From contig CP136061.1 in assembly GCA_032622095.1 (NCBI GenBank), positions 233,428,944 to 233,492,943 of the forward strand: 64,000 nucleotides of DNA. The letters are read 5' to 3'. This DNA is from Siphonodentalium dalli (Eukaryota > Mollusca > Scaphopoda > Gadilida > Siphonodentaliidae). Below the pieces are notes generated by a model. The model was not told the origin of the DNA. It was given only the letters and a program-made list of their open reading frames with translations, and did not search any database. The position numbers and the translations under genes are program-made. Below are positions 19,040-53,922 of this stretch, in pieces. Positions within the stretch are counted from its first letter, which is position 1. Each line of letters starts with the position of its first letter.

Positions 19040-20030
19040 TCAGGACTGACTACACGCCTTTCGATAAACGTCACACCCGTATGGTCGATTGACGGTGCGA
19101 AGTCTCTGATTCGATAGACTTGCGGTATGACCTATCCATAACCACGTCACACTCGTATGGGCGATCCCCGGTGTGTATTTTTGTGTGTGTTGCCAGGTTT
19201 TCGGAATAACGAAATGTCTTATATGTGGCACACACCATATATGAGATTATTATTATTATAGATACATTTAGAGCGCATTATACAATAAATTAGTTTCAAT
19301 TCGCTTACAATACAGACATGGCACACATCCTAAAATAATAGTAAATAGCGAATGGATAATTTTATATACAAAGAACCTAACTAGAAAATACGCAAATGTA
19401 ACCTAATTCTCAACCGCGGTAAAGGCAATATAAATAAATAAATAAATAACAGTTTTGTATAGCGTAAAATCCACCGAAGTGCTCTAAAACGCTTGACATG
19501 TTAAACATAAAATACAATTGCAAATATAAGACATAATTTTGGACATCAACAAAAAATGTAAAACTATAAGTGAGACGTTACTAAGAAATACAGAAGCGCA
19601 TAAAATTACAAATCGAAAAAATATTTAAAAGTTACTGGTAAATTGGGGGTGGTAACATGCTAAAAAATGCTAACAACGAAAAAATGATGCCACATACTGG
19701 TATGGACGATCGCCGGTGTTGGTGTTGGTCCTCTGATGCATTGTCAGACTCCATATATGAGTGAATACCTTCTGACACACTTCACATGCGTATGGGCGAT
19801 CACCAGTGTGAATTCCGGGTGTTGTCAGGTATTCAGAATCACTAAATGTCGGATTGCACATGTCACACGTGTATGGTCGATCTACCGGTGTTGGTCCTCT
19901 TATGCGTGACAAGACTAGATATGACTGAATTCCGTCTGACATACGTCGTGTGGGCGACCCCCGGTGTGTTCTCTTATGCATGGTCATGCTCCAGATATCT
20001 GAATTCCTTCTGACACACGTCAAAGAAAAA
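19040..20030 (-). pseudogene. Decayed C2H2 zinc-finger array 3 (inverted)
   Basis: On the minus strand, 20023-19670 stays open for 117 codons with RPYTCDMC, then GIHTGDRPYACEVC and SLTMHQRT, i.e. two or three recognisable fingers among frameshifted ones. 19231-19040 adds a further broken finger (NRPYGCDVY). About 19245-19660 between them is AT-rich, non-ZF sequence (ATT repeats), apparently an insertion. The flanking CGCCAGCTTTTGATG-type repeats on its 5' side (20041-20150) show that it is an inverted relative of arrays 1 and 2. Confidence 0.65.
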
Positions 20031-28059: not shown

Positions 28060-28142
28060 ATGAAATTCTACAAGCAGTGGAAACCGTCCGAAATTGATTC
28101 AGATCTGGAATCTCTGGCTGAAAAGAGCAGAAGACAACGAAG
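28060..28142 (+). CDS. DUF4806 gene exon 1 (initiator)
   Basis: Opens with ATG in the context GAAAATGA and reads MKFYKQWKPSEID...SLAEKSRRQRR before the donor AG|GTACAT. 83 bases, ending in phase 2. The first ATG of the open frame was chosen; an untranslated upstream exon is possible. The end of the exon is strongly basic. Confidence 0.75.
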
Positions 28143-31100
28143 GTACATTATGGCATCACTGATCGCCTGCCCCACACATTAACATTCAAAGTGCAAAGTG
28201 CAAACAGAAATGGTCACTTTAAATCAATTGTGTCTCTCCACATCTTTTAGTATTATTTGATTTATACAACTCATATTTGGTCAATGAATTTTTATACGCC
28301 CGTTTTTTTTAAACTTACAAACGTGGTCAGGTTGTCTGTATGCCCATCTTCCGCCTGTTTGCTACTGGTTTCTGAATGATAACTTTAGATAGTTAGTCTG
28401 AACTGAATGGGATGAAATTTTGTCATAAACATAAACTACAGGTGAGGTTTGAATTTGGGTTCTTCCTGCCAATTTTGACCAGAGTTATGGCTATTTTTGT
28501 TGGGAGTTTGCACTCATTTTTTTTTCCTGGGTGATAACTTTGGTAGGTCTGAACTGAATGGAATCAAATTTGGTATGTGAGTTTTCTAGCCATTAATACA
28601 GGTCAATTTCAAATTTGGGTTCCGCCTGCCAATTTTTACCAGTTGGAACTACCACAGGCATATTTTGCCACTCCCTAGCGAATATTAGCGATGCTCTTGT
28701 TTTGTCTAGGGAAACAAGTTAGTTTCAATTATTTAATATCTGGGTGCATTCCGCACATTTTTGTCAGCAATGGTCCTTATCATAATTAAAGTAATGCCCT
28801 AAATAATCTACTGCTTAACCACAGCAGAATTATAGGTAATTTTTCAGGATTTAGTCGGAAATATGGCTTGTTGCCATTCATCGGAAAGCTCTCAGACTGG
28901 AAAATCTGTTTTAACTAATGCTTTCTTCTGAAATTCCAATTCTGTGAAAAATACATCTCATATTCTACTATCCTAACCTAGCAGATGAAACAAATTCACC
29001 AGGTGTTCTCTATTTTTTCCTTTTGGAAAATATGTTATCCCACTTAATACCACAGTGATGTTGAGACAGCCCTCGAATTTAGCTATGGCTAAACTTAAGG
29101 TAATGCTGTAGAAAAATCAGTAGAAGCCAATACTGTATATAATTTCATACAGTTCTAAGCAAATGCTGTAGAAGAAAAGCGCCAATTTCAAGGGCTGTTG
29201 AGATAACTGAATTTACTTTTATTTCAGAAAATTAAAAGATGGTATCCGCACTCTACCAATAAAAAAAACATTTCTGTCACCTGGTCGTCCAAGATCAACC
29301 CAAGTAACTTCAACCTCACAGCAGGTTACTCTGAAGATGATTTATGGTGAGCATAATACTGTCAGACCAATTTAAAAACTTGAATTACGAACATGAAAAT
29401 CAACACACAGAAGAAAAAATGTAATAGAAACATTTTGAAGCATTTTTGTTTTAAAATAATTGTTCCATTTTAATTGTTAATGATTTTAAAATACCAGTAA
29501 TAATTGATGTCATGTCCATAAAACATAGAGGTTAATGTTAGCCACTTATATACCGGTGTAAAAATAAGACTCAGAAAGAAATTTGTGCTTTTATACCAAA
29601 ATTCATCAAATTCTATATTACAAACAGAGAATCAACCAGCTTGTAACAAGGCTTTTTCAATTGCATGTGTATGACAGCTGATTGTATTGACAAATATTAT
29701 AAGTGGTTCGTAATTCACATTTTAAATTGTTTCAGCCTTGTTAAATGTCAAATTGTGAAAACCGTTTGATTTGCCATTTCTAAGCTCTATGAATGGCAAC
29801 AAGCCATATTTCCGACTAAATCCTGAAAAGTTACCCATAATTCTGCTTTGGTTAAGAGGTCGATTAATTAGAGCATTACTGTAATTCTCTTTTGAAGAAA
29901 CAGTGCATTGTTATCAGTCTGAGATACCGTTCGTCATTCAAGCGACTCTAGTTGTCACAATCAAATTTTTCCTGTCTTTCATGCCGGAAATAAAAGAACA
30001 ATTTCAAACGACAGTTTGGTCAAAAATTCCTTTCTTGATGAATAAAAACTTGTTCCGTTAAATGACCAGTGTGACATCGAGTATTATGATACCAGGTGTT
30101 CGAAATTTGCACCATTTTGATGTACGCTGTAACAATGTGAAGGTTGCATAATTACCCCATTCAGAGTCTCACCCTGAACTGAAAATCTCATTGACAAAAA
30201 TTTTACACAACAATTACACTACCGTAGTGTAAGTATACCACCAAGCAACGTTGACTAAAGTGTTGATTAAACTATTTCTACTCAACAAGTTGAACATTGA
30301 AAGTGAAATCGCTCAACAACCGATTGATTTTGCTCAACAGTCGACTGAAAAATGAAGCTTTATTAGTTAAGAAAAGAAGTTGGCTAGGAATATTTGTTGG
30401 AAGAATTCTCAAAACTGAACTGGATGATATATCCAAAATCAGCAAATGAATCACCATTGGAAATATTGATAATTTTTTTATGAAATTCCCTATATAGTAT
30501 AGTATCTGATAACGGTCTGTTGAAGATATTAAATTTATTCTGTGATATAACTTGATTCATATGTCTGGATCATTTGTAGTGTCCATGAAATTAGAACCTC
30601 GGCTTCAAAATGTTAACTCTTTAATGAGGTGATGAACTTATGAAGTTCTGACATACCTATATCGGTCATCTCCCATCTCAATGTTGCATTAAGATTAAAA
30701 ATTAATGTTGAAACATAGATTAATCATCTCGAAATGACTACCATTATAGATTCATAGTGTTTAAATTGAGTTATTGTTCTGAGAACTATTAATTAACGTG
30801 TTGATTAAATCCGAAACAGATATCATGATTTGTTGTATACAAATATTGTTGCCCATATATTGAAGATGTGCAACATGTATATAGATGACGGATTTTTTTT
30901 TTTTTTACGGAGTTATTAACCCTTTTCGACATTTTTTATAATTTTCAGTATGAGGGTACCTTCATGGTGTAATTAACTCCTCCTACAGTTTTCATCATAG
31001 AGATTTGAAACTTCAGAGTATTGTTACCCACATATTGGAGATTATTAACCCTTTTTTAAATTTCTTTAACAAAGCGGCATCGACTTGCCACGTTGTCGGG

Positions 31101-37100: not shown

Positions 37101-40100
37101 ATCTTATGATCGTGTCATGGACATCTCAAACCAGCTTGGAAATGTTGTTGTTAAACATTATCAAATAGATGGAGTTATGTGTTCACCTATATTGAGAAAA
37201 GGCTTGTTCACCACATCTGCTTTGGACCATATTGACCACAACCCTATATCAACTACCAGCACATCAGCTTTCCACGGGACAAATATTTCCATGTTTCAGC
37301 ATCCGCATCCAGATAATCAAGGCGAGCAGCAACCTATTGACTTCAGTTCTGAAAAAAACTGGAAAAACGAAACAAATCCCACATCTTCCGGACTCGAATA
37401 CAAATGTTCCACCTGTCTACTAGTATTTAAAAGATTTAAAGCCAAACCCACCAACCAACACTGGCTTTGGTCTACCTGGTTCAACTGTTTTTCAAAAACA
37501 TCTTCGGCTGGATTATGAGTGGTTGCAAAAGGCCTCGACAACAGAAGTCATTGATGGTAGTACATCAATACTAGTACTATGGTCAGCTCATCATGCAACT
37601 CAAAAGAGACGTCAGCAGTTTGATATAGCAATAACCTCAATGTTATCTATGTTAATGAATATTAATGAATCAGTTCAACTTCTAAAATCAGAACGGACAC
37701 CGGTCATTACTGCAGACCAGCCTCTGCATGCATTGGCTAAGCAGATACAGTGGCAGTGGCCAGACTTATATGGTGAGGACAGATAAGTTGTTATGCTTGG
37801 AGGGTTACATCTGGAATTGGATGCTCTAACGACGGTTGGTTCAGTGCTTCAGGATAGCGACTGGGCGAGTGCTCTCGTAGAAGCAGGTATAGAAAGCCAG
37901 GCGCAGCAGATTCATTCATCAAAGCTTCATGTATTACAAAAACCCGACAATCACATCAGATAACAGCGTGTAGTCTTTTCAAACTCATGAAATTTGCATA
38001 CTCAGAATACTGCAGTCGGGATTTATCCGATGTTGATAGTATGCACTAAAATTTCAATGACTGGTATAAAAGTAAATGTGCTGTGATCTAATCAAAAGAC
38101 ATTCTATTTCAATTTTTCGGTCGTCTCCAGCTGAAATAAAATCAAAGAAAACAAGTACGAAAGATGATTGTCAACTCTTCTCTCGATTGTTCATATCTTG
38201 TCAGACCTTTGTGACATTTTTGCACATGAAAACCAGATTTCTCCAGCATCAATCAGTAACGATGGAAAACTCATATGTGCCATAAATCTCAATAGATGGA
38301 TATATTTGAAGCAGAGTTAACACTGCCCGAGGAAGCACCCACTGCAGATGCTGTACTGCTAATAGATGGTTCTGACATAATAAATGTTCTTCAACCTAAT
38401 AGTGTGAAACAAATTGATGAATATGCACAAGACGATGACATTCCTAAAATACAGACATATTGCCATATATATAAGAGAACTGACATCATGTTTGACGTGT
38501 ACAAGACAGGTAGCCGCAAACAGGAAACTAGGGCAAAGCACGGAAAAGGAATCAGGAGAAGGGTATCAGGATCTAGCAAAACTCTAGCAGACTGGTATAG
38601 CTTTCTTCGCGATGACAACAACAAAACAGAGCTATCAGTAGTTCACTTCCTTGCTGATAAGATCATAACTGTTAATACGGCCAATGGCATTGTTGTTACC
38701 AAAGGTGAACATGTACAACGTAACCATGAACTTGATTTGGATATTCTTGCACCATGTACACATGAAGAGGCCGATACAGGGAGTTTTGTGCATGCAAATT
38801 ACGCAGTTATCAACCAACACAACAGCATCATAATCCAAGCCACCGACACGGATATAGTGATTATAGATGTAATTGTATACTCAAGTTTGAAAGCATTCGG
38901 TCACAGAAAAAATTCAGATGGATTCCGATACATGAGATTGTTTCATCAATAGGTACAACAAAATGTTATGGAATTCTCTTTTTCCTTGCAATTAGTGGAT
39001 GTCATGTGGTTCTGCATTTCGCAGGAAAGGAAAAAAGTATGCATGGCAGACATGGAATGTATTTCCAGAAGCTTTATCAATTTTCTCCAGACTCAGCAAT
39101 TCTCGAGTGTCCATCACAGAACATAACATTGCAGTAATCGAAAGATTCGTTATAATAATGTACGACCTTTCAAATACATTAACGAAGCCAGACTAGACTT
39201 TTTTTTGCACGAAAACAGACCATACAATGCTATTCCACCTACAAGGTCTGCGCTGTTGCAGCATGTCAAGCGAGCCGCATACGAGGCCGGGCATATATGG
39301 GACGATCATTGGCACGTAAACCAGCCAACCCGAGTCCTACAGATTGGGAATGGGCAGAAAATGGCAGTCACTGGGAACCATTTTGGACGGAGCTTCCACC
39401 AATTGCTAAATTTTTCAGTCAGTTGACCAAATGCGGCTGCAAGAAGGCAAATAGTGGGCGATGCACATGCTACCATATTGGGCTTCCATGCACCACTTTA
39501 TGCAGTTGTTGCTGCCAACTTTAAAAGACTCTAAGAACTGATAGTAATGAATGTGTGTAGATCTCCCAGTACTAACATCATATATAGTGTGACGATAAAT
39601 TGTTTGAAATTGAATTTTTTTTCACAATTTTGAAAGTTAAGTGATATAAAAATGCCAAAATTTTGAAACGAAACAGCTGTTGTTACAATATATTGTTTTA
39701 ACATACTCAGGTTGTGTTTTAATTTCAATTCAACCTTTAGAAATGAAATAAGATCTCTTGTTTGAGTGATACATCGATCAAACTTTTCAAAATTCGAAAA
39801 CTGACGTAGCTGAAAATGGTGGCCATCTTGAAAATGGCGGCCATCTTGGATTTTCGCGTGGTTTGTCGAACAATATTGTTTAGTGGCCCATACTCATTAC
39901 TGATCATTCGTGCCAAATTTCATGCTTGTATCACCAAGTGAACGATTTTACACTTAGCCGCCCTACTAATAATTAATTATTTAGTTAAGTTAATTATTAG
40001 TGCCCGTTTAAGACATCTGATGTCAGCGACACTTATATTATGACACTCTCCAGGTCAATTGATCCTGTGTAAAAAAATTCAGCTCCGAGTGTCCAGCCAT

Positions 40101-43100
40101 TTGGTCGGCCATAGCCCAACAGGCAAAACAATTTGTTTTTAAATTGAGTTTTATTTGTACATGTAGTACATGTATAGATAATAATGGTATGCTTACTCAC
40201 TATAATGATTTTATAAATGGACTCTTGTGTTGTATAATATAAATTGGATCATAGAAGGGTGATGTTGGGGTGTAAATTGTACTTCAGCCATTGTTACTTC
40301 TCCCAATCTGAAACCTCTAGCCTGGTCCCTGCTACAGACAAATGTAATTTTATGAAAATCTATATATATATCTCATATATATTTTGAAGACCTCTGTATG
40401 TTTGTATGTTTGTTTGTATGTATGTTTGTCATTGATACAAATCTACGATTCTCGACCGATCAGGATGAAACTTGGTACGTGTGTGTAGTTTGACCAGGCG
40501 GTGGACGTTGTCGTATTGGCGAGCCCGTGCGGCGCCCGTGCAGCCTTCGCGCATGCGCAGACGAGATCTCGGAAACGGGTGGAGCTATCGACTTGAAATT
40601 TGCTATGTGAATGTATCTTGCCCCGGATACGAATTTTATCGGGTCGCCGAGCCCGTGCGACGCCAGCTTCGCGCATGCGCAGACCGGATGTCGGAAACGG
40701 GTGGAGCTATCGGCTTGAAATTTGGTATGTGAATGTATCTTGCCCCGGATACAAATTTTATCGGGTCGCCGAGCCCGTGCGATGCCAGCTTCGCGCATGC
40801 GCAGACCAGATCTCGGAAAACCGGTGGAGCTATCGACTTGAAATTTGGTTTTTGAATAGCCCGGACAACGTCGGGCTCATCGGCTATCTCATATATATTT
40901 TGAAGACCTCTGTTTGTTTGTCTGTCTGTCTGTCTGTATGTATGTCATTAATACAAATCTACGATTCTCGACCGATCGGGACGAAACTTGGTACGTGTGT
41001 GTAGTTTGACCAGGCGGTCGTCGTTGTCGTATTGGCGAGCCTGTGCGGCGCCCGCTTCGCGCATGCGCAGACGAGATCTCGGAAACGGGTGGAGCTATCG
41101 ACTTGAAATTTGCTATGTGAATGTATCTTGCCCCGGATACGAATTTTATCGGGTCGCCGAGCCCGTGCGACACCAGCTTCGCGCATGCGCAGGCGAGATC
41201 TCGGAAACGGGTGGAGCTATCGACTTGAAATTTGGTATGTGAATGTATCGGGTCGCCGAGCCTGTGCGACGCCAGCTTCGCGCATGCGCAGACGAGATCT
41301 CGGAAACGGGTGGAGCTATCGACTTGACATTTGGTATGTTAATGTATCTTGCCCCGGATACGAATTTTATCGGGTCGCCGAGCCCGTGCGACGCCAGCTT
41401 CGCGCATGCGCAGACCAGATCTCGGAAACGGGTAGAGCTATCGACTTGAAATTTGGTTTTTGAATAGCCCGGACAACGTCGGGCTCATCGGCTAGTCTCA
41501 TATATATTTTGAAGACCTCTGTCTGTCTGTCTGTCTGTTTGTCTGTATGTTTGTCTGTCATTAATACAAATCTACGATTCTCGACCGATCGGGACGAAAC
41601 TTGGTACGTGTGTGTAGTTTGACCAGGCGGTCGACGGTGTCGTAATGGCGAGCCCGTGCGGCGCCCGCTTCGCGCATGCGCAGACGAGATCTCGGAATCG
41701 GGTGGAGCTATCGACTTGAAATTTGCTATGTGAATGTATCTTGCCCCGGATACAAATTTTATCGGGTCGCCGAGCCCGTGCGACGCCAGCTTCGCGCATG
41801 CGCGGACGAGATCTCGGAAACGGGTGGAGCTATCGACTTGAAATTTGCTATGTGAATGTATCTTGCCCCGGATACGAATTTTATCGGGTCGCCGAGCCCG
41901 TGCGACGCCAGCTTCACGCATGGGCAGACGAGATCTCGGAAACAGGTGGAGCTATCGACTTGAAATTTGCTATGTGAATGTATCTTGCCCCAGATACAAA
42001 TTTTATCTGGTCGCCGAGCCCGTGCGATGCCAGCTTCGCGCATGCGCAGACCAGATCTCGGAAACGGGTAGAGCTATCGACTTGAAATTTGGTTTTTGAA
42101 TAGCCTGGACAACGTCGGGCTGGGTAGAGCTATCGACTTGAAATTTGGTTTTTTAATAGCCCGGACAACGTCGGGCTCATCGGATAGTCTCATATATATT
42201 TTGAAGACCTCTGTCTGTTTGTCTGTTTGTATGTATGTTTGTCTGTCATTTATACAAATCTACGATTCTCGACCGATCGGGACGAAACTTGGTATGTGTG
42301 TGTAGTTTGACCAGGCGGTGGACTTTGTCGTATTGGCGAGCCCGTGCAGCGCATGCGCAGACGAGATCTCGGAAACGGGTGGAGCTATCGACTTGAAATT
42401 CGCTATGTGAATGTATCTTGCCCCGGATACGAATTTTATCGGGTCGCCGAGCCCGTGCGACGCCAGCTTCACGCATGCGCAGACGAGATCTCGGTAACAG
42501 GTGGAGCTATCGACTTGAAATTTGCTATGTGAATGTATCTTGCCCCGGATACGAATTTTATCGGGTCGAATAGCCTGGACAACGTCGGGCTGGGTAGAGC
42601 TATCGACTTGAAATTTGGTTTTTGAATAGCCCGGACAACGTCGGGCTCATCGGCTAGCCTATTATATATTTTGGGAAATCTGTGTCTGTCTGTCTGTGTG
42701 TTCGCGATGGACTCGAAAACGGCTGAGCCGATTTCGATGAAACTTGGTATGTGGGGTACTTTCGGCCCTGGAGTGGCATGGGCCTATTAATTTGCCTGTG
42801 CGACGTGACCTTGACCTTGAAATCGGGTCATTTCAAGGTCGAACGCCTGAGTATCACGGGATTTCGATGAAAATTAGTGTCTGGGGATACTTTCGTATGG
42901 GGAGTGTCGTGAGCCTATTCGTTTGCCCGTGCGACGTGACCTTGACATCGGGTCAATTCAAGGTCAAATCCCGAATTTTTATGGGATTTCGACGAAATTT
43001 TATACGTAGGGTTACTTTTGTCCATTGAGTGTTTTGGACAGTTCAATCGTGACCCCGACCTGACCTTGACCTTCAAAATGATCAATTCGAGGTCAAATCG

Positions 43101-46100
43101 GGTAAAACCGGATGGATTTCGACGGGTGCTTTTGTCGGGTACTTTTGTCCGGGCAGTGTTTTGGGCGGGTCAAATTATTACCCCACCTCACCTTGACCTT
43201 CAAAATGGACAATTCAAGGTCAAATCGCGCAATTCGCCGAAAAGCAGTGGGGAAACGGCCTGGACGAAGTCAGGTCCACCAGGGATTTCGACTTTATTTG
43301 ATACGTAGGGTTACTTTTGTCCACTGAGTGTTTTGGATGGGTCAAATCGTGACCCCGACCTGACCTTGACCTTCAAAATGATCAATTCAAGGTCAAATCG
43401 CGCAATTCGCCGAAAAGCAGAGGGGAAATAGCCCGGACGAAGTCGGGTCCACCTGCTAGTATATATATAAAAGAGTAGGATCTGTCTGTCCGGATTATTC
43501 TCCCAGACCAATTTAGTGTGGTGACTCAGATTACTCTGACAGAGTTTTTTTTACAGATCAAACTGCTTAAACAATCAAAATGTGCACGTAGTGCAATCAT
43601 GGGCCGCAGGTCTCTAACGTACAAAGGCGCCACCCATGCTGAATAAAGGTTCCCTTTGGGAGCCTGTTTCGGCTAGTAACTTATATTGGACTGATTATTC
43701 ATTTTTCCGTTCTGAACACCTCAGCGGAGAGTTTCACATCACTTTAATTGTTAAGGTTTTTTTAGATTCTACCAAGGATCTGTTAAAAATGGTTGCATCA
43801 GTGCAAGACGAACAGAGGCAAATAGCTGCTGAGATTAATGCTTTGAAGTTCCAGGTCGAAACGGTGAGAAGAACTTATCTATGTAGTTTACTATTGCTGA
43901 CATATGTTTTGATGAATTATTGTGGGTGTCCATCTGTCATGTCACAATGTAAGTGTGGTGACTTTAACAAACTTTCTCCGTTTTTGACTACATTTGATCC
44001 ATGGTTTCCCGACTCCCTTGAATGAGTTTGATAACCAGTCCTGTCCGAACTCCTGGATCATTTACAGTAATGCTCTAAGTAATCGACTTCTTAACCACAG
44101 CAGAATTATGGGTAACTTTTCAGGATTTAGTCGGAAATATGGCTTGTTGCCATTCATCGGAAAGCTCTCCCCGAGAGCCATGCTCTGATTGGTTTAATTT
44201 GATGAACTGCTGTGATTTCAACCAATCAAATACTAGTATATTGGATATATCGTCTGCACAAAACAACAACACGTGGGCCGTGGAAAGATGTCTGCTCAAG
44301 AAAGCTTAAAACTGGTCAATCCGACAGCAGCCTACAGGTCGAAAATCTGGCAGTATTTCGGTTTTGGTACGTATACTGTTGAAGAGGATGGAAAGCGATG
44401 CATTAAGACAGGCAGAACTAAAATGATCTGCAAATTATGTTCGACGGCAACCTCTTACAAGACTGGTGTTACGACCAACATGTCGCACCATTTGAAACGA
44501 CATCATTCTCAGCCAGCTGTTGTGATTATGTGACATATAAGCAGATGAGTGAGAAACTTTTCAACTCTTTTACCGACTTCAGTATCAATATGTCATGTTG
44601 TACTGGTCATGTTGTCAGTTGTACAGGGACATGGGTTGGTTGGGGTGTCTCACTGAGAGCTTTCCGATGAATGGCAACAAGCCATATTTCTGACTAAATC
44701 CTGAAAAGTTACCCATAATTCTGCTGTGGTTAAGGAGTCGATTATTTAGAACATTACTGTAAGTGATACTCCATGTTTCCCTGGTCCGATAGTAACATTC
44801 TTATTTTATTCCTCTAGCTAGAGATGAAGTGTACTGATGAACGAGATGAACCAGGGGAAGAAAAGCATCCTCCTGTGAACATCCCGGCATCGACAATAAA
44901 GGATTTGATGCAGATCGAGGCATTGTTGGACAATCCATCTGCCATGAAGGCACTGGTAAGGCCCTAAAAAATGTAGGCCTAAAAACGAGTGATGTTTACA
45001 GTAACAAAGGGAAATATGTAGGGATGGGCGGAAATGAAGGCACTGGTCCAACTTTGGGTATTTGATGTCAAAACTTACTGGTTAATTTTTTCTATATTAA
45101 ATGGGTTCTCCCATTCATTTATAAAAGTATACAGTAATGCCCTAAATAATTGACTCCTTAACCACATCAGAATTATTGATAATTTTTCAGGATTTATTCG
45201 GAAATATGGCTTGTTGCCATTCATCGGAAGGCTCTCACTGAGAGCTTTCCGATGAATGGCAACAAGCCATATTTCATGCTTTTCAAAACTTTATGGCTTG
45301 AGAAATGATAAATTGACTTTGCATGTCCTAATTAGTTGGTATTTGCTATTTTTTTTTCTTCGTAGGTTCGCCAGTATAACTGCATAGGTGGATCGTCCCA
45401 CCAAGAAGTAGTGTCCAAGATTTTTGCTGCTACAATGGTGCACGACCTTGCAGTGAGAATTAATTGGACTGGAAAAGGGTCCAAGAGGAAACAACCAATG
45501 CTCGACTTCCCAAAGCTCATCAAGTGTATGCTAAGTAAGTGATAATAAAAAGATATCGTAAAAAAACTCAGTTTATCGCTTCATTCCAACAAAATCAAAG
45601 AAACTGGAAACTTCATATTTGGACTATTTCTTAGTGAAAATTCATTAGAAACAGGAAGATTTTAACATAAAAGTAACAAAAAATATACAGGAAAGCAAAA
45701 GATTAAGACTTGAGTATCTGTTGTGATGGCAATAGAGAACTGTGTGGAAACCACAATATTAAAATTCATACAAGTTGATAGCAAAGGGCTTAAGAGTTTT
45801 TGGTCAGAAAATAAGTCATTTTAAATTCATGTTGTATATACAAATATACACCTTAAGATGCATCAGGCTTATGAAGTACTCAGCTCGATGTAACATATAT
45901 ACATTAATTCATAATTGAGGAGTATGAAGATTAAAAACGTCTTGTTTGTCTTGTTTCCAGCATCGGCTACGAGACATCAAAATCTCACTGAGGTTGTATT
46001 TGCTAGTCATGCCAAAATGTGTCTTCGTCGTGCACCTGATAGACATGGAGGTCGCGGTCAACGAAAACAGAAAATAAAAAATCAAGTGGAGTCATCGGTA

Positions 46101-49100
46101 AGCCAAATATATCATATAATCAAATTTACCTCTGTGTTTTTCAACATGTTTCATGATTTTACTGTTTACCATCTTGGAATTGCTTTTGGTGACAAGGCAG
46201 TGGTCTTTCACTGAAAATCATGAAACACAACATTGTTATTCTATAAAAATAACAATAATTTAGCTGTTTAGTTGCCTGTCATTTGTAAAACAAAAATGGG
46301 TTTCATAAAAAAATTTGGGGATTTTGGGCAACATATTTTATCTTAAAGATATATTATGTACTTATTCGGGTGCATGAAACTAGTAAGTTAGTATTCAGGC
46401 ACTATGCCAACTGAAGGAATATAGCATTCTAGTAACATCGCCGAAAATTTCAAACAAATCGACCTTACCAATCCATAGAAAACATCGTCTGAGGCTATGC
46501 ACAATTGGAAATATTTACTTCTCAATTCGGGATGCAACTATCTGCGATAAGCTAACGAAAATGATTTCGCCATCCAGAGTCGCTGTATTTAATTAATATA
46601 TAAGAATGGCGGTGTTATTTCGAACTATTATCAATGAATTTGAAAGATGTTTGGTATATTAGTTCACAAAAGGAGTATCTGTAAAAAAAAGTTCGCAAAC
46701 TAGGGGCCAGGCCATACATTTTCACTAGAGTAATGGCCCTCAGATTGTAATTTGATTGTAATTGTAATTTTTGAGCATTTTAAGCCCGAACTAAAACACA
46801 TATTAACCAATCTCAAACAAATTAATTTTTGGCATATTTTTAAAATGCCCATCCCCAACTTGGCCAACTTAGGTGGGGGAGACTGCCATTGGTGACTGCT
46901 TGTTTGTTTTGCTTGTACAATAATTTTTGGCAAATTGTTTCAGCTCTCAAAATCATAAAGAGGTTTGTGTTACTGTATTAATTGATATTCATGTAAAACT
47001 GTAAAGTGACAATTCCAAAGTTAGAGGGTTATCACTGGTTGTTGAGGCCACTTTTTACTTAGTTCGATATTCATGTCAGTGATGCCATGAACTATTGAAA
47101 TACCATCATTATTAGTGTGGTGCAGTAGAACTACCTATCTTTACTAAATATTTAACAGTTACCTTCTATGTACACGACTATATATATATATCAGTATCAT
47201 GTTGGTCTTAAATGAACTTTCAAGAAAATAAATAACTGCATACCTTTGGATACATGATTTTTACAGAAAAAACATTTCCTGCTTTGAATTCGCTGCTTTG
47301 GGTGCGCAAATTCAAAGTGTGCATATTTAAAACTAAGCGAAAAATAATAATGCATGAATTTAATTATGAGTAAGGTAGTGCTTCAGCCTAGAACAACTAA
47401 GTGATACTCCTTGTTTCCCTGGTCCGATAGTGACATTCTTATTTTATTTCTCTAGCTAGAGATGCAGTGTACTGATGAACGAGATGAACCAGAGGAAGAG
47501 AAGTATCCTCTTGTCAACATCCCGGCATCGACAATAAAGGATCTGATGGAGATCGAGGCATTGTTGGACAATCCATCTGTCATGAAGGCACTGGTAAGGC
47601 CCTAAAAAATGTAGGCCTGAAAACGAGTGATGTTTCTGGTAACTTCCGGGAAAAATGTAGGGATGGGCGGAAATGAAGCCACTGGTAATGCCAAAATAAC
47701 TTTTTTTCCAACTTTTGAGTCAAAACTTACTGGTTAATTTTTTCTATGTTCTCCCATTCATTTATAAAAGTATACAGTAATGCCCTAAATAATCGACTCC
47801 TTAACCACAGCAGAATTATGGGTAATTTTTCAGGATTTATTCGGAAATATGGCTTGTTGCTATTCATCGGAAAGCTCTCAGTGAGAGCTTTCCGATGAAT
47901 GGCAACAAGCCATATTTCATGCTTTTCAAAATTTTATGGCTTGAGAAATGTAAATTGACTTTATATGGCTTAGTTGGTATTTGTTGTATTTTTTTCTATA
48001 GGTGCGTCAGTATAATTACATTGGTGGATCATCCCACCAAGAGGTAGTGTCCATGATTTTTGCTGCTACAATGGTGCACGACCTTGCAGTGAGAATTAAT
48101 TGGACTGGAAAAGGGTCCAAGAGGAAACAACCAATGCTCGACTTCCCAAAGCTCATCAAGTGTATGCAAAGTAAGTGATAATAAAAAGATATCGTAAAAA
48201 AACTCAGTTTATTGCTTCATTCCACCAAAATCAAAGAAACTGGAAACTTCATATTTGGACTATTTCTTAGTGAAAATTCATTAGAAACAGGAACAAGATT
48301 TCAACCTAAAAGTAACGAAAAATACAGGAAATTAAATGATTAAGACTTGAGTAGCTGTTGTGGTGATAATATGCCCTATCACTAACTCCTGGCCATTTTA
48401 GAACCACCAGGTCCGGTTCCGTGGTTTCATAGATTCATCCAGCCCGGTTCCGTGGTATCAGTGCTACAGGTCAAAGTTTTGGAGTGGCATTTCCATATAT
48501 GGAGCTCTTAAATTATTCATGACTCCCATATATGGAAAGTTAAGTAAAAACATGTAACCCGACCTGGTGGATTCAAAATGGTCGCGAGTTAGTGATAGGG
48601 CATATAGAGAACTATGTGTGGAAACCACAAATATTAAAATTCATACAAGTTTGATAGCAAAAGCTTCATAAGAGTTTTTGGTCAGAAAATAAGTCATTGT
48701 AGTTATTACTAACATATTATGTCTTATGTGTTATGAGAAAAATCTTGATAGATTTGAGGACATCTTTTAAAGACATATTATACAATGTTGTTTTTCTTGT
48801 ACAAGTCAGGTCATGGTGAAAAGTCATATTGGACGAGACACGCAGTGTCGAGTCCAATATGACTTTTCACCATGACCTGGACTCGTACAAGAAAAACACA
48901 TACTGTACACAAATTGTATTATAAAATTTTTATTATCCATCTGTGTGTTTATCCAAATTTTGGGAATAAAACTTTTGTGGTTATTGTTAGTATTTGTCGG
49001 CTCTTGATACTCTATAAAAGCCTGTATTCGATCATTAGAAAGCATGATTTGGAACAGTAAACACGGAAGTGAAAACAAAACTCAATGCAGAAGTGAAACA

Positions 49101-52100
49101 TCTGCTAAATCCACCACAGTATTGCATGCGCATCATAATTTCACCGATTAATTTCGCAATAGAGTTAATTCGTGAGGTCACAGAGTCCCGATAAAAAAGT
49201 CATATTGCACACTTGGGAGTCCAATAGGACATTCGGGAGTCCAGTATGACTTTTTCCCCGATTATCACGTGGCGGCTTTTGACCAATCAGAAATAGTGTT
49301 AGTTAAGGGATGGATAATAATATATGCTTCTTTCACTATTTAAACTGATATTTTATGACTCCGCCACTACACCTATTTGAAGAAAGCATCATTAGACTAT
49401 TATTTTCCAAAATTGCAACAACAATGGATGTACCGTACCCTTTTGAAGAACACGTCATCTGAACTATGCAAAAATGTAAACAAAACAGTCTGACATTTGT
49501 CCCGAACAAATCGCCGGTAAACAAACGAGAATGATTACTAACGAGAGTCACTTTATTTGATGTATATGGTAGAATGATGTTGTGTAGTTACTGGCAATTT
49601 TGATATAAAATTAATTAAAGTTCCTGCTTTGAGTAAGCTTATTCACTGTGCATCCCAGCATTATGTTTCACATTACTTTAAGTACATCATTCATGTTGTA
49701 TATACAAATATACACCTTAAGATACATCAGGCTTATGAAGTACTCAGCTCGATGTAATATATACATTAATTCATAATTGAGGAGTATGAAGATTAAAAAC
49801 ATCTTGTTTGTCTTGTTTCCAGCATCGGCAACGAGACATCAAAATCTCACTGAGGTTGTATTTGCTAGTCATGCCAAAAGGTGGCTTCGTCGTGCACCTG
49901 ATAGACATGGAGGTCGCAGTCAACAAAAACAGAAAATAAAAAATCAAGTGGAGTCATCGGTAAGCCAAATATATCATATAATCAAATTTACCTCTGTGTT
50001 TTTCAACATGTTTCATGATTTTCAGTGGTTTCACTGATTTTACTGTTTACTGTCTTGGAATTGCTTTTGGTGCCAAGGCAGTGGTCTTCCACTGAAAATC
50101 ATGAAACACAACATTGTTATTCTATAAAAAAATAAATAATTTAGCTGTTTAGTTGCCTGTCATTTGTAAAAAAATTGGGGATTTTGGGCAACATATTTTA
50201 TCTTAAAGATATATTATGTACTTATTCGGGTGCATGAAACTAGTAAGTTAGTATTCAGGCACTATGCCAACTGAAGGAATATAGCATTCTAGTAACATCG
50301 CCGAAAATCCATAGAAAACATCGTCTGAACTATGCACAATTGTAAATATTTACTTCTCAATTCGGGATGCAACTATCTGCGATAAGCTAACGAAAACGAT
50401 TTCTCCATCCAGAGTCGCTGTATTTAATTAATATATAAGAATGGTGGTGTTTGTTGTCAATTTCGATATAATATTTGTAAAAATTACTACTTGGAGCAAG
50501 ATTTTTGTCCATTTCTATTTGATCACCCTACCGGAGTGTTTCACATCACTTTAAAGCTCATATACTGGAGACATTGGAAACCAATGTTGACAACTTCTTA
50601 TCACTTCGTTGCCTCAAGAATGGTGTTACCATAGCAACAGTATGTGATTTCTGAGAATTCTGGAAAATGACCATATATGAAGTATTTTAGTGATAGTGGT
50701 GGACCTATTGGTGGATATAGTTATATAGTAATATTTATATGTATAAATTATCCATGGTGGACAGCCAGTACTTATCTAAGGGTCAAGGTCACTGAAAGGA
50801 CATTATCAATAATTGAGTGATTATTATTCGTGTGATAGATTTTTCAAAACATGTGACTGGGCCAATGCCCACCCATAATGTGTGGCAATTGTTTATGGGG
50901 AAGGACGATTTTTCATTTTAGTCGCATGTTTTGTAAAATTTCTCACATGAGTAATAATCACCCTATGGATATGATATATGGCTCAAAATAAAGGCTATCT
51001 AACCAAATGATAGGCTACCAGTTGCTTAAAACTTTCTATACTAAAGCATCATTGATGAGTAGTTACCCATAGGAAATGTTCAGATAATAAGTTCAACAAA
51101 CAACCATACAACCATAGTCATAATTTGTCAGTCGTTATATTAGATTAAATTAGTTTGTAATCCTTTACAAAGTTATCCTTACATTTTTCTGGACCTGGGA
51201 AGGTATAATAACCCATGCTTACTATGCCAGTCTATGACGGTCAGATACAAAATTTAAATAAAACCCTCGCTCACTCATTGATTTTCAAAAAAATTGCCTG
51301 AGAATCAAATACCTTTTTTTGTTTGGCTTTATTATGTACATTTGTCTATAATAGTACTTAACAGTATACGCTATAATTCAACAAAAAAACTCTAATTTAT
51401 GATTCTGATCATAGTAATTTACTGTCGCCAAGGGATGGGTTAAACATCTGCCGATCATGATCGGCCTCTCATTATCTAAACATTTCCCTAAATAAATTGG
51501 GCTCCTTCTGCACTTTTATTTTCCTGTCATCTGCTTTTATCCTCTCAACATCCCTCCAAATCAATAATAGACCATTCCGATGTACACTTTTTAACTGACT
51601 AGTAGAATCCATTAAGTATAGAAAGGGTTAAACTATGACATATTTTTTGGAAGCCAAACAAGATCAACTTGTTCATTTCACAATGATTAAATAATAGCAG
51701 TTCTATTTTATCCATAATTAAACTTTCATGACTGGAGATTTTTTTTATTTTGAGAAAACCCTGTGCCAATGCATTCTCTTATATATGCGAGTTGCCCATA
51801 GGGCACCTCGCATATATAAGAGAATGCATTGGCCTATCAATATATACCTTGATTTGTAAGCCAGTGCATTCTCTTATATATGTGAGGTTCCCTATGAGAG
51901 ACTCGCAAATATAGCAGAATGCACTGGCACAGGGTCTTTAATGCTGCACCAGTGCAGCTCCCGTCATGAAAGGGTTAAATAGCAATAAATGTGAAAAATT
52001 ACTCCCTTAATTGAAACTCAATTTCAATACTCTGATTTTTATGGAGATTTCATAAATTTCATCATAAATAATTCAGTAGGCTTCACTTTAATTCAATACC

Positions 52101-53914
52101 CATCAGAGGTTAATAATCTAATTTGTATTAAAATGTCACACGATGACCACATGTGAATAGCGCGGATACCATGGAACCAGGCATGATGCATGATGTCTAA
52201 TATTGTTTATAAATAATAAAGCTGCAGTTGAATCATATCCTTTGCTGGACGATACTCACTGGTTTATTGAGATGTGAATTTTATTGCAATTATTTAATAA
52301 GAAAGCTTTTTCAATTGTATCAAGACAGTAGACACTGTTAATGAGTTTATATGAGATGCATCCAATCAGAATGAGTGTTATAGTGACAAATATTCAACTT
52401 GAGTTACAATTGTTGCTGTTCTTTGGTTTTTAGCTCAACTTTACTTTGTCATTTTGGGGTCATTCGGCCGAAAAACATGGCCGCCAGCCATCTTGGATTT
52501 TACTCTTTGTATGACTAAATCATTTAGCACGGGCTACAGGTCGTACCTTTAGTCTGATCATCATAAAATTTGTCATGAATGTTAATAATGACATGTAGAT
52601 GGGAACGAGTCATTTTGGGGTCATTCGGCCAAAAAACATGGCCACCAGCAGCCATCTTCGATTTTACTCTTTGTATGACTAAATCCTTTAGCACGGACTA
52701 CAGGTCGTACCTTGAGTCTGATCATCATGAAATTTTTCATGGCTGTTGAAATTGGAATGTAGATGGGAACGAGTAATTTTGGGGTCATTCGGACGAAAAA
52801 CATGGCCACCAGCGGCCATCTTTGATTTCAAAATTCAATCCAATAGCATGGGCTACAGGTCGTACTGTTCGTCTGATCATCATGAAATTTGTCATGGATG
52901 TTAATATTGACATGTAGATGGGAACGATTAATTTTGGGGTCATTTCGGTCAAAAAACATGGCCGCAGCAGCCATCTTGGATTATACTCTTTGTATGACTA
53001 AATCCTTTAGCACGGGCTACAGGTCGTACCTTTAGTCTGATCATCATAAAATTTGTCATGGATGTTAACAATGACATCTAAATGGGAACAAGTCATTTTG
53101 GGACCATTCGGCCAAAAAACATGGCCGCCAGCAGCCATCTTTGATTTTACTCTTTGTATGACTAAATCCATTAACACGGGCTACAGGTGGTACTTTTAGT
53201 CTGATCATCATAAAATTTGTCATGGCTGTTGAAATTGTAATGTATATGGGAACGAGTCATTTTGGGCTCATTCGGACAAAAAACATGGCCGCTAGCGGCC
53301 ATCTTGGATTTCAAAATTCAATCCATTAGCACGGGCTACAGGTCGTACTGTTCATCTGATCATCATGAAATTTGTCATGGATGTTAATATTGACATGTAG
53401 ATGGGAACAAGTAATTTTGGGGTCATTTGGCCAAAAACATGGCTGCCAGCAGCCATCTTGGATTTTACTCTTTGCATGACTAAATCCTTTGGCATGGGCT
53501 ACAGGTTGTACCTTTGGTCGGATCATTATGAAATTTGTCTTGACTTTTGACATTGACATGTAGATGGGAACGATTCATTTTGGGGTTATTCGGCATTAAA
53601 ACATGGCTGCCAGTGGCCATCTTGGATTCTACTCTTTGCATGACTAAAGCTATCAAATGTTTTTGAATTGTTGGAAAACATAGCCGCCAGCAACCATCTT
53701 AGATTTTACTTTTATATACATGTATATATATATCTCTTCATGTTGATAAACTAGTATTAGACATTCAACTTTCCACATTCCTAATCACTCCATCGACAGT
53801 AACACATTAAATTATTCCCTTTCCAAGTTGATCTACAGTGTCATTGACACTTTCATTATTTTTTACCTTTATTTTTCTCTTCCTTAACAGGAATCATCTG
53901 ACAGCAGCTTTTAG
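28060..53914 (+). CDS. Spliced gene for a DUF4806-domain protein (whole gene model)
   Basis: Exons by my reading: 28060-28142, 29228-29346, 43766-43863, then cassette A (44818-44955, 45366-45534, 45961-46097), cassette B (47456-47593, 48002-48170, 49823-49959) and 53891-53914. Every border is GT...AG and every phase matches. The first three exons total 300 bases, each cassette 444, the last 24 including TAG. One cassette gives 255 residues, both give 403. The order is: basic N-terminus with KSRRQRR (a possible nuclear signal), a Ser/Thr/Pro-rich linker, a ~35-residue coiled coil, and a C-terminal region with IGGSS, INWTGKGSKRK and LDFPKLI that fits DUF4806 (Pfam family of unknown function, common in invertebrate proteins). 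Intron 2 is 14.4 kb, mostly transposons. Function is unknown; a nuclear role is only inferred from the basic stretch. Confidence 0.8.
28291..28704 (+). repeat. Bivalve-type repeat with two ~150 bp cores (intron 1)
   Basis: Starts TTTATACGCCCG and ends GCGATGCTCTTGTTTT. Inside, AGTCTGAACTGAATGGGATG ... AATTTGGGTTCTTCCTGCC and GGTCTGAACTGAATGGAATC ... AATTTGGGTTCCGCCTGCC are direct copies. Non-coding, on the same strand as the gene. Confidence 0.55.
28789..29881. mobile_element. CAGTAATGCCC-family TIRs enclosing exon 2
   Basis: The left arm (28789-28897) runs AAGTAATGCCCTAAATAATC to CATCGGAAAGCTCTC; the right arm (29790-29881) is its complement, ending GAGCATTACTG. TA lies on both outer sides. 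The arms break exactly where compact copies of this family have their palindrome centre. Between them is ~890 bp including exon 2 of the DUF4806 gene. This is either one long element that took in the exon or two opposed insertions; the TA flanks and matching break point favour one element. Confidence 0.6.
29228..29346 (+). CDS. DUF4806 gene exon 2
   Basis: Acceptor TTTATTTCAG, then 119 bases reading (R)KLKDGIRTLPIKK, FLSPGRPRSTQ and QQVTLKMIY, donor G|GTGAGC. It joins in phase to exon 1 (AG+A = Arg) and to exon 3 (G+AT = Asp). It encodes the Ser/Thr/Pro-rich linker. It lies inside the TIR-bounded segment 28789-29881. If skipped, exon 1 to exon 3 shifts the frame and meets a stop within about 25 codons. 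Confidence 0.75.
29882..31600. other. Intron 2, nothing recognised
   Basis: AT-rich sequence with a T run near 30893-30906 and two loosely repeated phrases ATTAACCCTTTT (30918, 31046). No exon that would chain in phase was seen. Confidence 0.45.
31601..32465 (+). repeat. Two to three direct repeats of ~360 bp in intron 2
   Basis: AGGTGAACCTA...GACAAGCTGTTTTTGGTG (about 31618 and 31997), GGCAGAATCTGGG(G/C)AACAA and CATATCCAAAATCCCCATGA (31878 and 32215) recur in order; a third, partial unit follows to 32460. A reverse-orientation piece lies at 34950-35090 (CAGATTCTGCCCG, ACACCAAAAACAGCTTATCA). Confidence 0.65.
32466..32852. other. Intron 2, nothing recognised
   Basis: Open to 32743 in one frame (from 32414) but without a domain; overlaps the preceding repeat. 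Confidence 0.35.
32853..33227 (+). mobile_element. TTAA MITE, AGTGATATGAAAC / GTACATAATATGTCTT ends, copy 1
   Basis: TTAA 32853-32856 then AGTGATATGAAACACTCCGG; right end GTACATAATATGTCTT then TTAA 33224-33227. About 370 bp, non-coding. Further copies at 34563-34940, 46343-46612 (partial, inverted) and 50203-50554 (inverted). Confidence 0.7.
33228..34562. other. Intron 2, nothing recognised
   Basis: A 121-codon minus-strand frame (33547-33912) and others lie here without any domain or splice partner that I can see. ACACAAAG(T/A)GGTC repeats at 34109 and 34136. Confidence 0.4.
34563..34940 (+). mobile_element. TTAA MITE, same family, copy 2
   Basis: TTAA 34563-34566 then AGTGATGTGAAACACTGCGG, and GTACATAATATGTCTT before TTAA 34937-34940. 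Shares GGGTGATCAAATAGAAATGG and CTCAAAGTAGTTATTTTTA with copy 1. Confidence 0.75.
34941..35096 (-). repeat. Inverted fragment of the 31.6 kb repeat
   Basis: TTTTCCCCAAAGCGGATTTT, GTTCCCCAGATTCTGCC and ACACCAAAAACAGCTTATCA are complements of phrases at 31.65-31.72 kb. Confidence 0.6.
35097..35240. mobile_element. CAGTAATGCCC-family MITE, right arm truncated
   Basis: The left arm is complete (CAGTAATGCTCTAATTAATC to AGAAAGCTCTCGGCGAGAGC). The right arm is cut after GCCATATTTC, where a Helitron-like 5' fragment begins. TA precedes the left end. Confidence 0.7.
35241..35285 (-). mobile_element. Helitron-like 5' end fragment (45 bp)
   Basis: The complement reads TCTCCTATATATTTTGAAGA followed by CCTCTGTCTGTATGTCTG, the 5' end of the elements at 40371-42657. 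Only the tip and the microsatellite remain, fused to the truncated MITE. Confidence 0.55.
35320..35930 (+). repeat. Diverged ~130-170 bp tandem repeats interrupted by the Academ-like element
   Basis: AAGTCATCTGA..TCAAC.TCACCTAT, CTC(C/G)CCAGGTCA and TGTGT..CAATTTTCC recur four to five times; the pattern resumes at 39985-40080 (AGACATCTGATGTCAGCGAC, ACTCTCCAGGTCAATTGATC). The 4 kb transposon therefore landed inside an existing repeat array. Confidence 0.55.
35953..39968. mobile_element. Academ-like DNA transposon, complete ends, dead ORF
   Basis: Long terminal inverted repeats of ~160 bp: left 35953-36115 begins TAGTAGGGTGGCTAAGCG, and the right end read in complement from 39968 begins TAGTAGGGCGGCTAAGTG. 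Both contain GGTGATACAAGCATGAAATT and AAGATGGCCGCCATTTT. A 3 bp duplication ATA (35950-35952 and 39969-39971) fits, although AT-rich flanks make this uncertain. Inside is one broken ORF with XPG-like acidic motifs and an eight-cysteine tail. Academ transposons are described as having short 3-4 bp duplications, an XPG-type nuclease and a Cys8 finger, hence the assignment. Confidence 0.65.
36627..39524 (+). pseudogene. Broken Academ-like transposase/nuclease ORF
   Basis: Collinear segments in changing frames: HKHGRDMLMTFSDTVSS (36650), DLTIAQLLQFN (about 36916), ITLYANNK (about 37030), ALDHIDHNP and SAFHGTNISMFQHP (37222-37310), SNTNVPPVY (37400), ADQPLHALAKQIQWQWPDLY then a stop and VVMLGGLHLELDAL (37712-37830), and an intact 218-codon block 38296-38949 with LLIDGSDIIN, GKGIRRRVSGSSK, WYSFLRDDNNKTELS, CTHEEADTGSFVHA and ATDTDIVIID. 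Then KKYAWQTWNVF, RPYNAIPPTRSAL, FWTELPPIAKFFSQLTKCGC and the tail CGCKK..RCTC..GLPCTTLCSC. I count at least five frameshifts or stops. The same protein family is widely annotated as 'uncharacterized' in molluscs, corals and hemichordates. DGSDI, EEAD and DTD look like the metal ligands of an XPG/PIN-type nuclease (inference). Confidence 0.75.
39985..40370. other. Continuation of the interrupted repeat, then AT-rich DNA
   Basis: 39985-40080 continues the array of 35320-35930. 40080-40370 shows no feature except an AT-rich run before the first Helitron-like element. Confidence 0.5.
40371..42657 (+). mobile_element. Four head-to-tail Helitron-like (pearl-type) elements
   Basis: Starts TCTCATATATATTTTGAAGA at 40371, 40887, 41496 and 42188. 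Each continues with a TCTG/TATG microsatellite, CTACGATTCTCGACCGATC, a variable number of ~122 bp cores (GCGCATGCGCAG, CGGAAACGGGTGGAGCTATC, GGATACGAATTTTATCGGGT), and a 3' hairpin AGCCCGGACAACGTCGGGCT followed by CATCGG and CTAG or a one-base variant. The next element starts directly after this end. Bivalve pearl elements combine a microsatellite with ~122 bp or ~160 bp cores; a TC start, hairpin and CTAG are Helitron hallmarks. The array is a CpG-rich island. The open frames on both strands here are products of the repeats, not genes. Confidence 0.75.
42658..43459 (+). mobile_element. Fifth Helitron-like element, TGACCTTGA-rich cores
   Basis: Follows the previous CTAG directly: CCTATTATATATTTTGGGAA, a TCTG microsatellite, GGCTGAGCCGATTTCGATGA, five cores of ~120-170 bp each holding GTGACCTTGACC and its partner TCAAGGTCAAAT, and the end GCCCGGACGAAGTCGGGTCC, ACCTG, CTAG (43456-43459). 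Confidence 0.7.
43460..43676 (+). mobile_element. Sixth Helitron-like element, short
   Basis: TATATATATAAAAGAGTAGG, GATCTGTCTGTCCGGATTAT, ... and a 3' hairpin AGGTTCCCTTTGGGAGCCT, GTTTCGG, CTAG (43673-43676). Related to 17543-17919. Its end is ~90 bp upstream of exon 3 of the DUF4806 gene. Confidence 0.65.
43766..43863 (+). CDS. DUF4806 gene exon 3 (coiled coil)
   Basis: Acceptor after GGTTTTTTTAG; 98 bases reading (D)STKDLLKMVASVQDEQ and IAAEINALKFQVET, donor ACG|GTGAGA, ending in phase 0. The heptad-like spacing of L, V, I and A suggests a short coiled coil for dimerisation. The frame stays open on both sides of the exon (43636-44025), so its borders rest on splice sites and phase rather than stops. 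Confidence 0.75.
44065..44759. mobile_element. TIR element of the CAGTAATGCCC family carrying a BED-finger ORF
   Basis: Left arm 44065-44173 (CAGTAATGCTCTAAGTAATC to GGAAAGCTCTC), right arm about 44655-44759, TA on both sides. Between them: CCAAT-like boxes (44180-44230), an ATG ORF (44288-44533) and ~120 bp of non-coding DNA. It sits in the intron between exon 3 and cassette A and is probably an internally deleted derivative of the autonomous parent. Confidence 0.7.
44288..44533 (+). CDS. BED-type zinc-finger ORF within a TIR element
   Basis: 81 codons from the ATG at 44288. After MSAQESLKLVNPTAAYRSK come the BED hallmarks: IWQYFGF (aromatic positions), then KMICKLC, then TTNMSHHLKRHH, giving C-x2-C and H-x4/5-H ligands. 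BED fingers bind DNA and sit at the N-terminus of hAT-type transposases and of ZBED proteins derived from them. No catalytic or dimerisation domain follows; the frame stops eight residues after the last histidines. No splice donor in phase is obvious, so it is probably a transposase remnant rather than an exon of the host gene. Confidence 0.65.
   Translation: MSAQESLKLVNPTAAYRSKIWQYFGFGTYTVEEDGKRCIKTGRTKMICKLCSTATSYKTGVTTNMSHHLKRHHSQPAVVIM
44818..46097 (+). CDS. DUF4806 gene cassette A (exons 44818-44955, 45366-45534, 45961-46097)
   Basis: Three exons in phases 0/0, 0/1, 1/0, 148 codons. The first reads LEMKCTDERDEPGEEK ... VNIPASTIKDLMQIEALL; the second QYNCIGGSSHQEVVSKIFAA ... INWTGKGSKRKQPMLDFPKL; the third ATRHQNLTEVVFASHAK ... 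RKQKIKNQVESS. IGGSS, the INWTGKGSK block and LDFPKLIKCM match the DUF4806 pattern; the third exon adds a basic tail. Donors GTAAGG, GTAAGT, GTAAGC. The first intron holds a MITE copy at 45132-45275 that is shared with cassette B. Confidence 0.8.
45132..45275. mobile_element. CAGTAATGCCC-family MITE in cassette A
   Basis: Left arm complete; right arm stops at GCCATATTTC. The orthologous copy in cassette B (47775-47918) is truncated at the same place, so this insertion and truncation came before the cassette duplication. Confidence 0.75.
46343..46612 (-). mobile_element. Partial TTAA MITE after cassette A
   Basis: TTAA then AGATATATTATGTACTTATT, same family as 32853-33227 but inverted. Its homology ends near 46612, where the similarity to cassette B also ends. 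This marks the right limit of the tandem duplication. Confidence 0.6.
46613..47397. other. Spacer between cassettes
   Basis: Not shared with the other cassette. 47285-47385 is a copy of the dispersed repeat at 20.76-20.87 kb. Otherwise AT-rich, with (TA)n near 47180. Confidence 0.45.
47456..49959 (+). CDS. DUF4806 gene cassette B (exons 47456-47593, 48002-48170, 49823-49959)
   Basis: The same three exons as cassette A, with identical lengths (138, 169, 137), phases and donors. Differences from A: in the first exon K>Q, G>E, H>Y, P>L, Q>E, A>V plus three silent changes; in the second C>Y and K>M; in the third M>R, C>W, G>S, R>Q. No stops or frameshifts. The long last intron of the cassette has gained a 231 bp MITE and a ~0.9 kb TTAA element. 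The cassette can follow exon 3 directly or follow cassette A without a frame change. Confidence 0.8.
47775..47918. mobile_element. CAGTAATGCCC-family MITE in cassette B
   Basis: Same position and same truncated right arm as 45132-45275. Confidence 0.75.
48370..48604. mobile_element. TA-flanked MITE with TGCCCTATCACTAAC ends (cassette B only)
   Basis: 48372-48602 has ~47 bp inverted arms (TGCCCTATCACTAACTC, CCACCAGGTC and complements) with TA on each side. Cassette A has the empty site (GGCAATAGAG, about 45730), so the insertion is younger than the duplication. Confidence 0.75.
48767..49681. mobile_element. ~0.9 kb TTAA element with internal palindrome (cassette B only)
   Basis: TTAA 48767-48770 then AGACATATTAT; right end ATGTTTCACATTACT before TTAA 49678-49681, the same end types as the 370 bp MITEs. 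It contains a near-perfect palindrome at 48789-48898 (TTTTTCTTGTAC, GGTCATGGTGAAAAGTCATA and complements) and a related pair of GTCATATTG / GTCCAGTATGAC near 49200-49250. Absent from cassette A, where AAGTCATTTTAAATTCATG is uninterrupted. No recognised coding sequence. Confidence 0.6.
50203..50554 (-). mobile_element. TTAA MITE, full-length inverted copy
   Basis: TTAA 50203-50206, AGATATATTATGTACTTATT, ..., GGAGTGTTTCACATCACT, TTAA 50551-50554. Complete version of the copy truncated at 46612. Confidence 0.75.
50817..50961. mobile_element. Small hairpin MITE (~145 bp)
   Basis: GTGATTATTATTCGTGTGAT ... CAAAACATGTGACT, with complements CACATGAGTAATAATCAC and AGTCGCATGTTTTG at the other end. Confidence 0.6.
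50962..51754. other. Last intron; dispersed repeat
   Basis: 51060-51600 shares ordered blocks with 8.92-9.09 kb. No exon seen. Confidence 0.45.
51755..51978 (+). mobile_element. piggyBac-like MITE, shorter subtype
   Basis: CCCTGTGCCAATGCATTCTC, a hairpin with GCGAGTTGCCCATAGGGCAC core, a second hairpin, and the end CATGAAAGGG then TTAA (51975-51978). The left TTAA/CCCTTTACCC tip is not clear. Confidence 0.6.
51979..52439. other. Last intron, nothing recognised
   Basis: AT-rich intronic sequence without a visible exon or repeat boundary. Confidence 0.4.
52440..53690 (+). repeat. ~160 bp tandem array with a three-unit (~482 bp) higher-order period
   Basis: CATGG of each unit lies at 52476, 52637, 52801, 52957, 53120, 53284, 53438 and 53602. 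Unit lengths run 161, 164, 156, 163, 164, 154, 164. Units three apart are more alike: those at 52801 and 53284 both read GATTTCAAAATTCAATCCA where the others have ACTCTTTGTATGACTAAATC. Shared blocks are ATTTTGGGGTCATTCGG, AAACATGGCCGCCAG, GCCATCTTGGATTT, GGGCTACAGGTCGTAC and CTGATCATCAT. Confidence 0.8.
53891..53914 (+). CDS. DUF4806 gene terminal exon
   Basis: Strong pyrimidine tract and acceptor (TTTCTCTTCCTTAACAG), then 24 bases in phase 0 reading ESSDSSF and TAG. The acidic/serine end continues naturally from VESS at the end of either cassette. An AATAAA follows three bases after the stop. Confidence 0.65.
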   Translation, partial: ESSDSSF

Positions 53915-53916
53915 TG

Positions 53917-53922
53917 AATAAA
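53917..53922 (+). terminator. Candidate polyadenylation signal AATAAA
   Basis: AATAAA directly after the stop of the terminal exon. It is unusually close, and a second AATAAA lies near 54127, which may be the one used. Confidence 0.35.

Follow-up and report, generated by a model that had tools for sequence, protein, structure and literature searches.

Tandem duplication of a three-exon DUF4806 cassette within one predicted gene of the scaphopod Siphonodentalium dalli

Gene model and domain content

The window analyzed here—the whole stretch of 64,000 nucleotides of Siphonodentalium dalli DNA—bears on its forward strand a predicted gene of 10 exons, which reads as one continuous frame of 1,212 nt and encodes 403 residues. 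Two neighboring cassettes of three exons each are included in this frame, cassette A at 44818–46097 and cassette B at 47456–49959 (Table 1), in line with the proposal of the first-pass annotation that a duplication took place inside one gene. The three exons upstream of the cassettes are predicted from splice sites and phase alone, and we infer that the gene is transcribed. Within the window, each of these upstream exons has one match and each cassette exon has two (tblastn, E up to 1), and the 24-nt terminal exon has a single site when up to 6 mismatches are allowed on both strands.

Table 1. Positions of the exons, the duplicated block, and the neighboring elements in the window
Feature	Position	Strand	Remarks
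Predicted first coding exon, ATG	28060..28142	+	83 nt; open frame, donor GTACAT, phase fits the next exon
Predicted coding exon 2	29228..29346	+	119 nt; from splice sites and phase
Coding exon 3	43766..43863	+	98 nt; encodes a heptad pattern, likely a coiled coil
Transposon-like element, intron before A1	44057..44767	.	120-nt inverted ends, BED zinc-finger fragment
Duplicated block, copy A	44764..46616	+
Exon A1	44818..44955	+	138 nt; first half of DUF4806
Exon A2	45366..45534	+	169 nt; second half of DUF4806
Exon A3	45961..46097	+	137 nt; basic tail
Spacer	46620..47397	.	without other match in the window
Duplicated block, copy B	47402..50451	+	longer mainly by two intron 2 stretches
Exon B1	47456..47593	+	138 nt
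Exon B2	48002..48170	+	169 nt
Exon B3	49823..49959	+	137 nt
Terminal coding exon	53891..53914	+	ESSDSSF and stop; AATAAA at 53917

As had been noticed earlier, the exons of both cassettes share their lengths (138/169/137 nt) and their phases (0-0, 0-1, and 1-0), and each cassette spans 444 nt or 148 codons without an in-frame stop; the other two frames bear 8 to 11 stops each per cassette. The five splice junctions named in the first-pass annotation all fall exactly on GT/AG sites. Its further statement that the splice sites of the two cassettes are identical holds for the donors—which are the same over the 8 nt shown and all begin with GTAAG—but not for the acceptors, which are similar: over the last 30 nt they differ at two positions for exon 1, at one for exon 3, and at more for exon 2. 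The peptides of A and B are 91% identical, with 13 of the 148 residues differing.

Scored by itself, each cassette matches DUF4806 (PF16064) above the Pfam gathering cut-off for this family of 25 bits, with 35.6 bits for A and 32.6 bits for B. The match covers profile positions 3–88 of 90—nearly the full length of the family profile in both copies—and lies at residues 18–102 of each 148-residue product. The domain is hence the product of exons 1 and 2, and the residues from exon 3 form a basic tail that the Pfam domain does not include. In the joined protein, two DUF4806 stretches are found at 64 bits. Directly ahead of the first cassette, residues 73–101, contributed by exon 3 of the gene and the first cassette residue, show a heptad pattern whose score under a purpose-made scoring rule is reached by a fraction of 0.001 of 2,000 shuffles; a pattern this rare makes it likely that exon 3 encodes a coiled coil.

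DUF4806 is called a BEN subtype in a statement of PMC11075544, which cites Pan et al. 2023. The BEN family in Pfam gave no match at E up to 1 or 10 (the HMMER filters drop most matches above 0.1), and searches of PDB sequences gave no BEN match and nothing credible, the sole match being an unrelated chain at E 0.55. By analogy with the published subtype statement, the DUF4806 domains might bind DNA. For this family, counts of 69 and 54 in two Hydra columns and of 0 to 6 in five others are given in PMC7642931, and an enrichment in a beetle is described in PMC13270666; the family thus expands in some lineages.

The duplicated block and the mobile DNA at its edges

The homology between A and B spans exons, introns, and flanks; blastn gives one piece of 984 columns at 90.4% identity and another of 811 columns at 89.4%. 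As it reaches into the introns, the resemblance of the cassettes is not due to chance. The locus is a tandem intragenic exon duplication, introns included—neighboring exons within one predicted gene that are homologous and agree in length and phase. The extra stretches in intron 2 of copy B lie at 48371–48607 and 48703–49688. The former, which is present in B and absent from A, measures 237 nt and bears inverted ends (arms 48369–48427 and 48547–48605, 83% complementary); it is probably a small transposon that inserted after the duplication.

On the left, copy A adjoins the end of the transposon-like element in the preceding intron, whose 120-nt inverted ends are 93% complementary and whose BED zinc-finger fragment scores 33.3 bits. 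On the right, the edge of the block falls into a repeat with relatives at 32956–33229 and 34671–34943 (81–83% identity). Hence, both edges of the block touch mobile DNA. Ends related to those of the transposon-like element are also seen at about 361–501, 28787–28894, 29789–29884, and 35095–35247. At E 1e-6, the spacer and the left intron (43864–44056) resemble no other part of the window. Relatives were also sought among viral and genome contig collections, neither of them eukaryotic, where none of the 21 and none of the 76 pattern matches, respectively, was confirmed.

Several further features were observed in the window. The last intron contains, at 52448–53614, an array in which a 41-nt reference stretch recurs eight times at intervals of 154–164 nt. 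G+C-rich repeated motifs can be recognized by eye at 40460–42660, and the GC content is 47% in 40001–44000 compared with 34–39% in the other 4-kb bins. Broken coding stretches with open reading frames of 133 and 218 codons occupy 36630–39530, around which similar flanks are seen by eye near 36000–36120 and 39800–39960; this region looks like a decayed mobile element. On the reverse strand, an open reading frame of 117 codons at 19670–20023 shows, by eye, a C2H2-like zinc-finger pattern.

Divergence of the two copies

Between A and B, 23 of the 444 coding bases differ (5.2%) without any indel, compared with 16–25 indel events in 1,331–1,343 aligned non-coding bases. These non-coding values come from nine alignments—five pairwise scorings and four MAFFT settings, realigned on the block itself—which give a non-coding divergence of 3.8 to 6.7% (pairwise 3.8 to 4.9%, MAFFT 4.6 to 6.7%). 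As the value varies with the alignment, the whole of this range is reported. A first MAFFT alignment with slightly wider edges had shown a higher divergence in the four non-coding stretches, with 11/74, 45/394, 29/422, and 15/477 differences. For indels spread evenly, the chance of finding none in the coding parts is 0.0002 to 0.005; for one copy being free, it is 0.016 to 0.071. Mutation by itself may, however, introduce indels more readily into introns than into exons, and the lack of coding indels hence gives moderate support for both copies having stayed coding.

Over the whole cassette, pN is 0.037 against a pS of 0.104 (Fisher p 0.016), and over exons 1 and 2 the values are 0.037 and 0.138 (p 0.005); exon 3 bears 4 non-synonymous changes versus 1 synonymous change. 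Measured against the non-coding rate, pN is lower at p < 0.05 in only one of the nine alignments (p 0.043; 0.18 to 1.0 in the others), and pS is higher at this level in six of nine. With pN near the non-coding rate and pS above it, the low pN/pS is due as much to a high pS, and the substitutions alone do not show a clear, strong constraint at the protein level. Gene conversion between the copies was also considered, for which the longest mismatch-free run of 154 columns (permutation p 0.077) gives a hint only, and it is not claimed.

Joint inclusion of the cassettes and its alternatives

For human exclusive exons, PMC5740500 lists as causes U2/U12 incompatibility, a donor lying too near the branch point, and a reading frame that shifts when both exons are included. 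All three of these mechanical bars are absent here: the donors read GTAAG, the intron between A3 and B1 is 1,358 nt long—the length from which the second bar was judged—and 444 is divisible by 3. As the first-pass annotation had foreseen, transcripts with A, B, or A+B all leave the frame open (255, 255, and 403 aa); skipping of A1 alone likewise leaves an open frame, of 357 residues. Mutually exclusive choice, which it had put forward alongside a double-domain product, is in turn disfavored by the absence of the three bars. A mechanical bar is not required, however: the same source describes many known exclusive clusters without one that rely on other regulation, and absent bars are hence compatible with exclusive choice.

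We consider it probable, although with some reserve, that the main product of this gene with its duplicated three-exon block is a two-domain protein of 403 residues made from a default A+B transcript. Three consecutive exons were duplicated in tandem within the gene together with their introns and some flanking intron. Since the cassette has phase 0 at both ends and is thus symmetric, its copy would have joined the transcript with the reading frame preserved. The predicted product would then comprise a short N-terminal part, the putative coiled coil, DUF4806 A with its basic tail, DUF4806 B with its basic tail, and ESSDSSF. By analogy, a second DUF4806 might add a DNA-contacting module beside a presumably dimerizing coil and thus raise the valency without swapping domains, and the single-domain forms would be in-frame by-products.

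A regulated or mutually exclusive choice, by which most transcripts would bear A or B and hence one DUF4806 of either version, appears rather unlikely to us. It is in keeping with every combination leaving the frame intact, with the 13 differing residues, and with the frequent tie of tandem exon duplications to such a choice (PMC9013439, PMC6071210). In addition, a model proposed in PMC6071210 holds that competing selectors arise when one arm of a stem within an intron is duplicated, and a docker-like stretch of 114 nt at 44648–44761—the right end of the transposon-like element—has complements in intron 1 of A and of B: 45130–45243 in A (90.4%, duplex −167 kcal/mol) and 47773–47886 in B (94.7%, −194 kcal/mol). 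This resembles the Dscam exon 6 type of docker and selectors described in PMC6071210, in which one unduplicated upstream stretch is likewise complementary to both intron copies. Here, however, the selectors follow the first exon of their cassette instead of preceding it. Pairing would hence loop out exon 1 and leave half a domain, which scores 21.7 bits and thus falls below the 25-bit cut-off; by this placement, the pairing of the transposon ends would skip the first exon of a cassette and not choose a cassette. The selectors, moreover, derive from transposon ends, and a stronger rival partner exists in the left end of the same element, which pairs with the right end at −200 kcal/mol; in a fold of 44050–45300, with copy B outside of the folded region, 111 of 120 bases go to this partner. 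The intron 1 copies also fold on themselves at about −68 kcal/mol each. Antisense matches to the introns of the duplicated block were also sought at E up to 1: the spacer yields none, and the right-hand intron yields three weak ones, the best over 45 columns at 80% (E 0.002). Exclusive choice would, finally, need the joint switching of three exons per copy and runs against the lack of any of the three bars to joint inclusion. That the same pairing of intronic transposon ends sets a balance between one- and two-domain DUF4806/BEN-like proteins, as a young switch of domain number, we regard as very improbable; if true, the valency of DNA binding would be tuned by splicing.

The use of one cassette only, with the other being a young copy that decays or is rarely included, is unlikely in our judgment: it would fit the pN close to the non-coding rate in eight of nine alignments, the excess of non-synonymous changes in exon 3, and the slightly lower DUF4806 score of B, but frame, splice sites, and domain score are kept in both copies, and the lack of coding indels would be a rare outcome if one copy were free. 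The closeness of the copies, which differ by insertions in the way haplotypes of very variable animals can, could also be read as an assembly artefact that places two haplotypes of one cassette in tandem. This is improbable, as the homology ends at both block edges where a haplotype join should extend it to the join, the window is without any N, and a pS of 0.104 is high for two alleles. Least probable of all is that A and B belong to different genes or transcripts that start and end independently of each other. One AATAAA does lie in the A3–B1 intron, at 47227, and would allow a transcript to end early, after A; yet the window has only one version of exons 1–3 and of the terminal exon, and cassette B starts and ends in phase with them.

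Tandem exon duplication has been estimated for about 10% of animal genes, a figure cited in PMC9013439. As in the cases described there, homologous exons that match in length and phase lie side by side, and the introns are copied along with them; the locus differs in that a block of three exons, encoding a whole domain and a tail, was duplicated instead of one exon. Among BEN proteins, BEND3 has four BEN domains and BANP a coiled coil (PMC11472053). If DUF4806 is a BEN subtype, the predicted protein would resemble these in bearing several copies per chain and a preceding coil, although its match is to DUF4806 and not to the Pfam BEN family, and its copies are 91% identical and recent. The locus is hence a good example of a common route of gene growth and no new kind of system. 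It shows cleanly how a symmetric exon block can duplicate a domain, and the event is young enough for the introns, the edges, and the transposons around it to remain readable. The locus lends itself to a direct test of whether a duplication in tandem yields a two-domain protein straight away or an alternative choice, as the model in PMC6071210 would suggest, and for DUF4806 it raises the question of which role the second copy plays.
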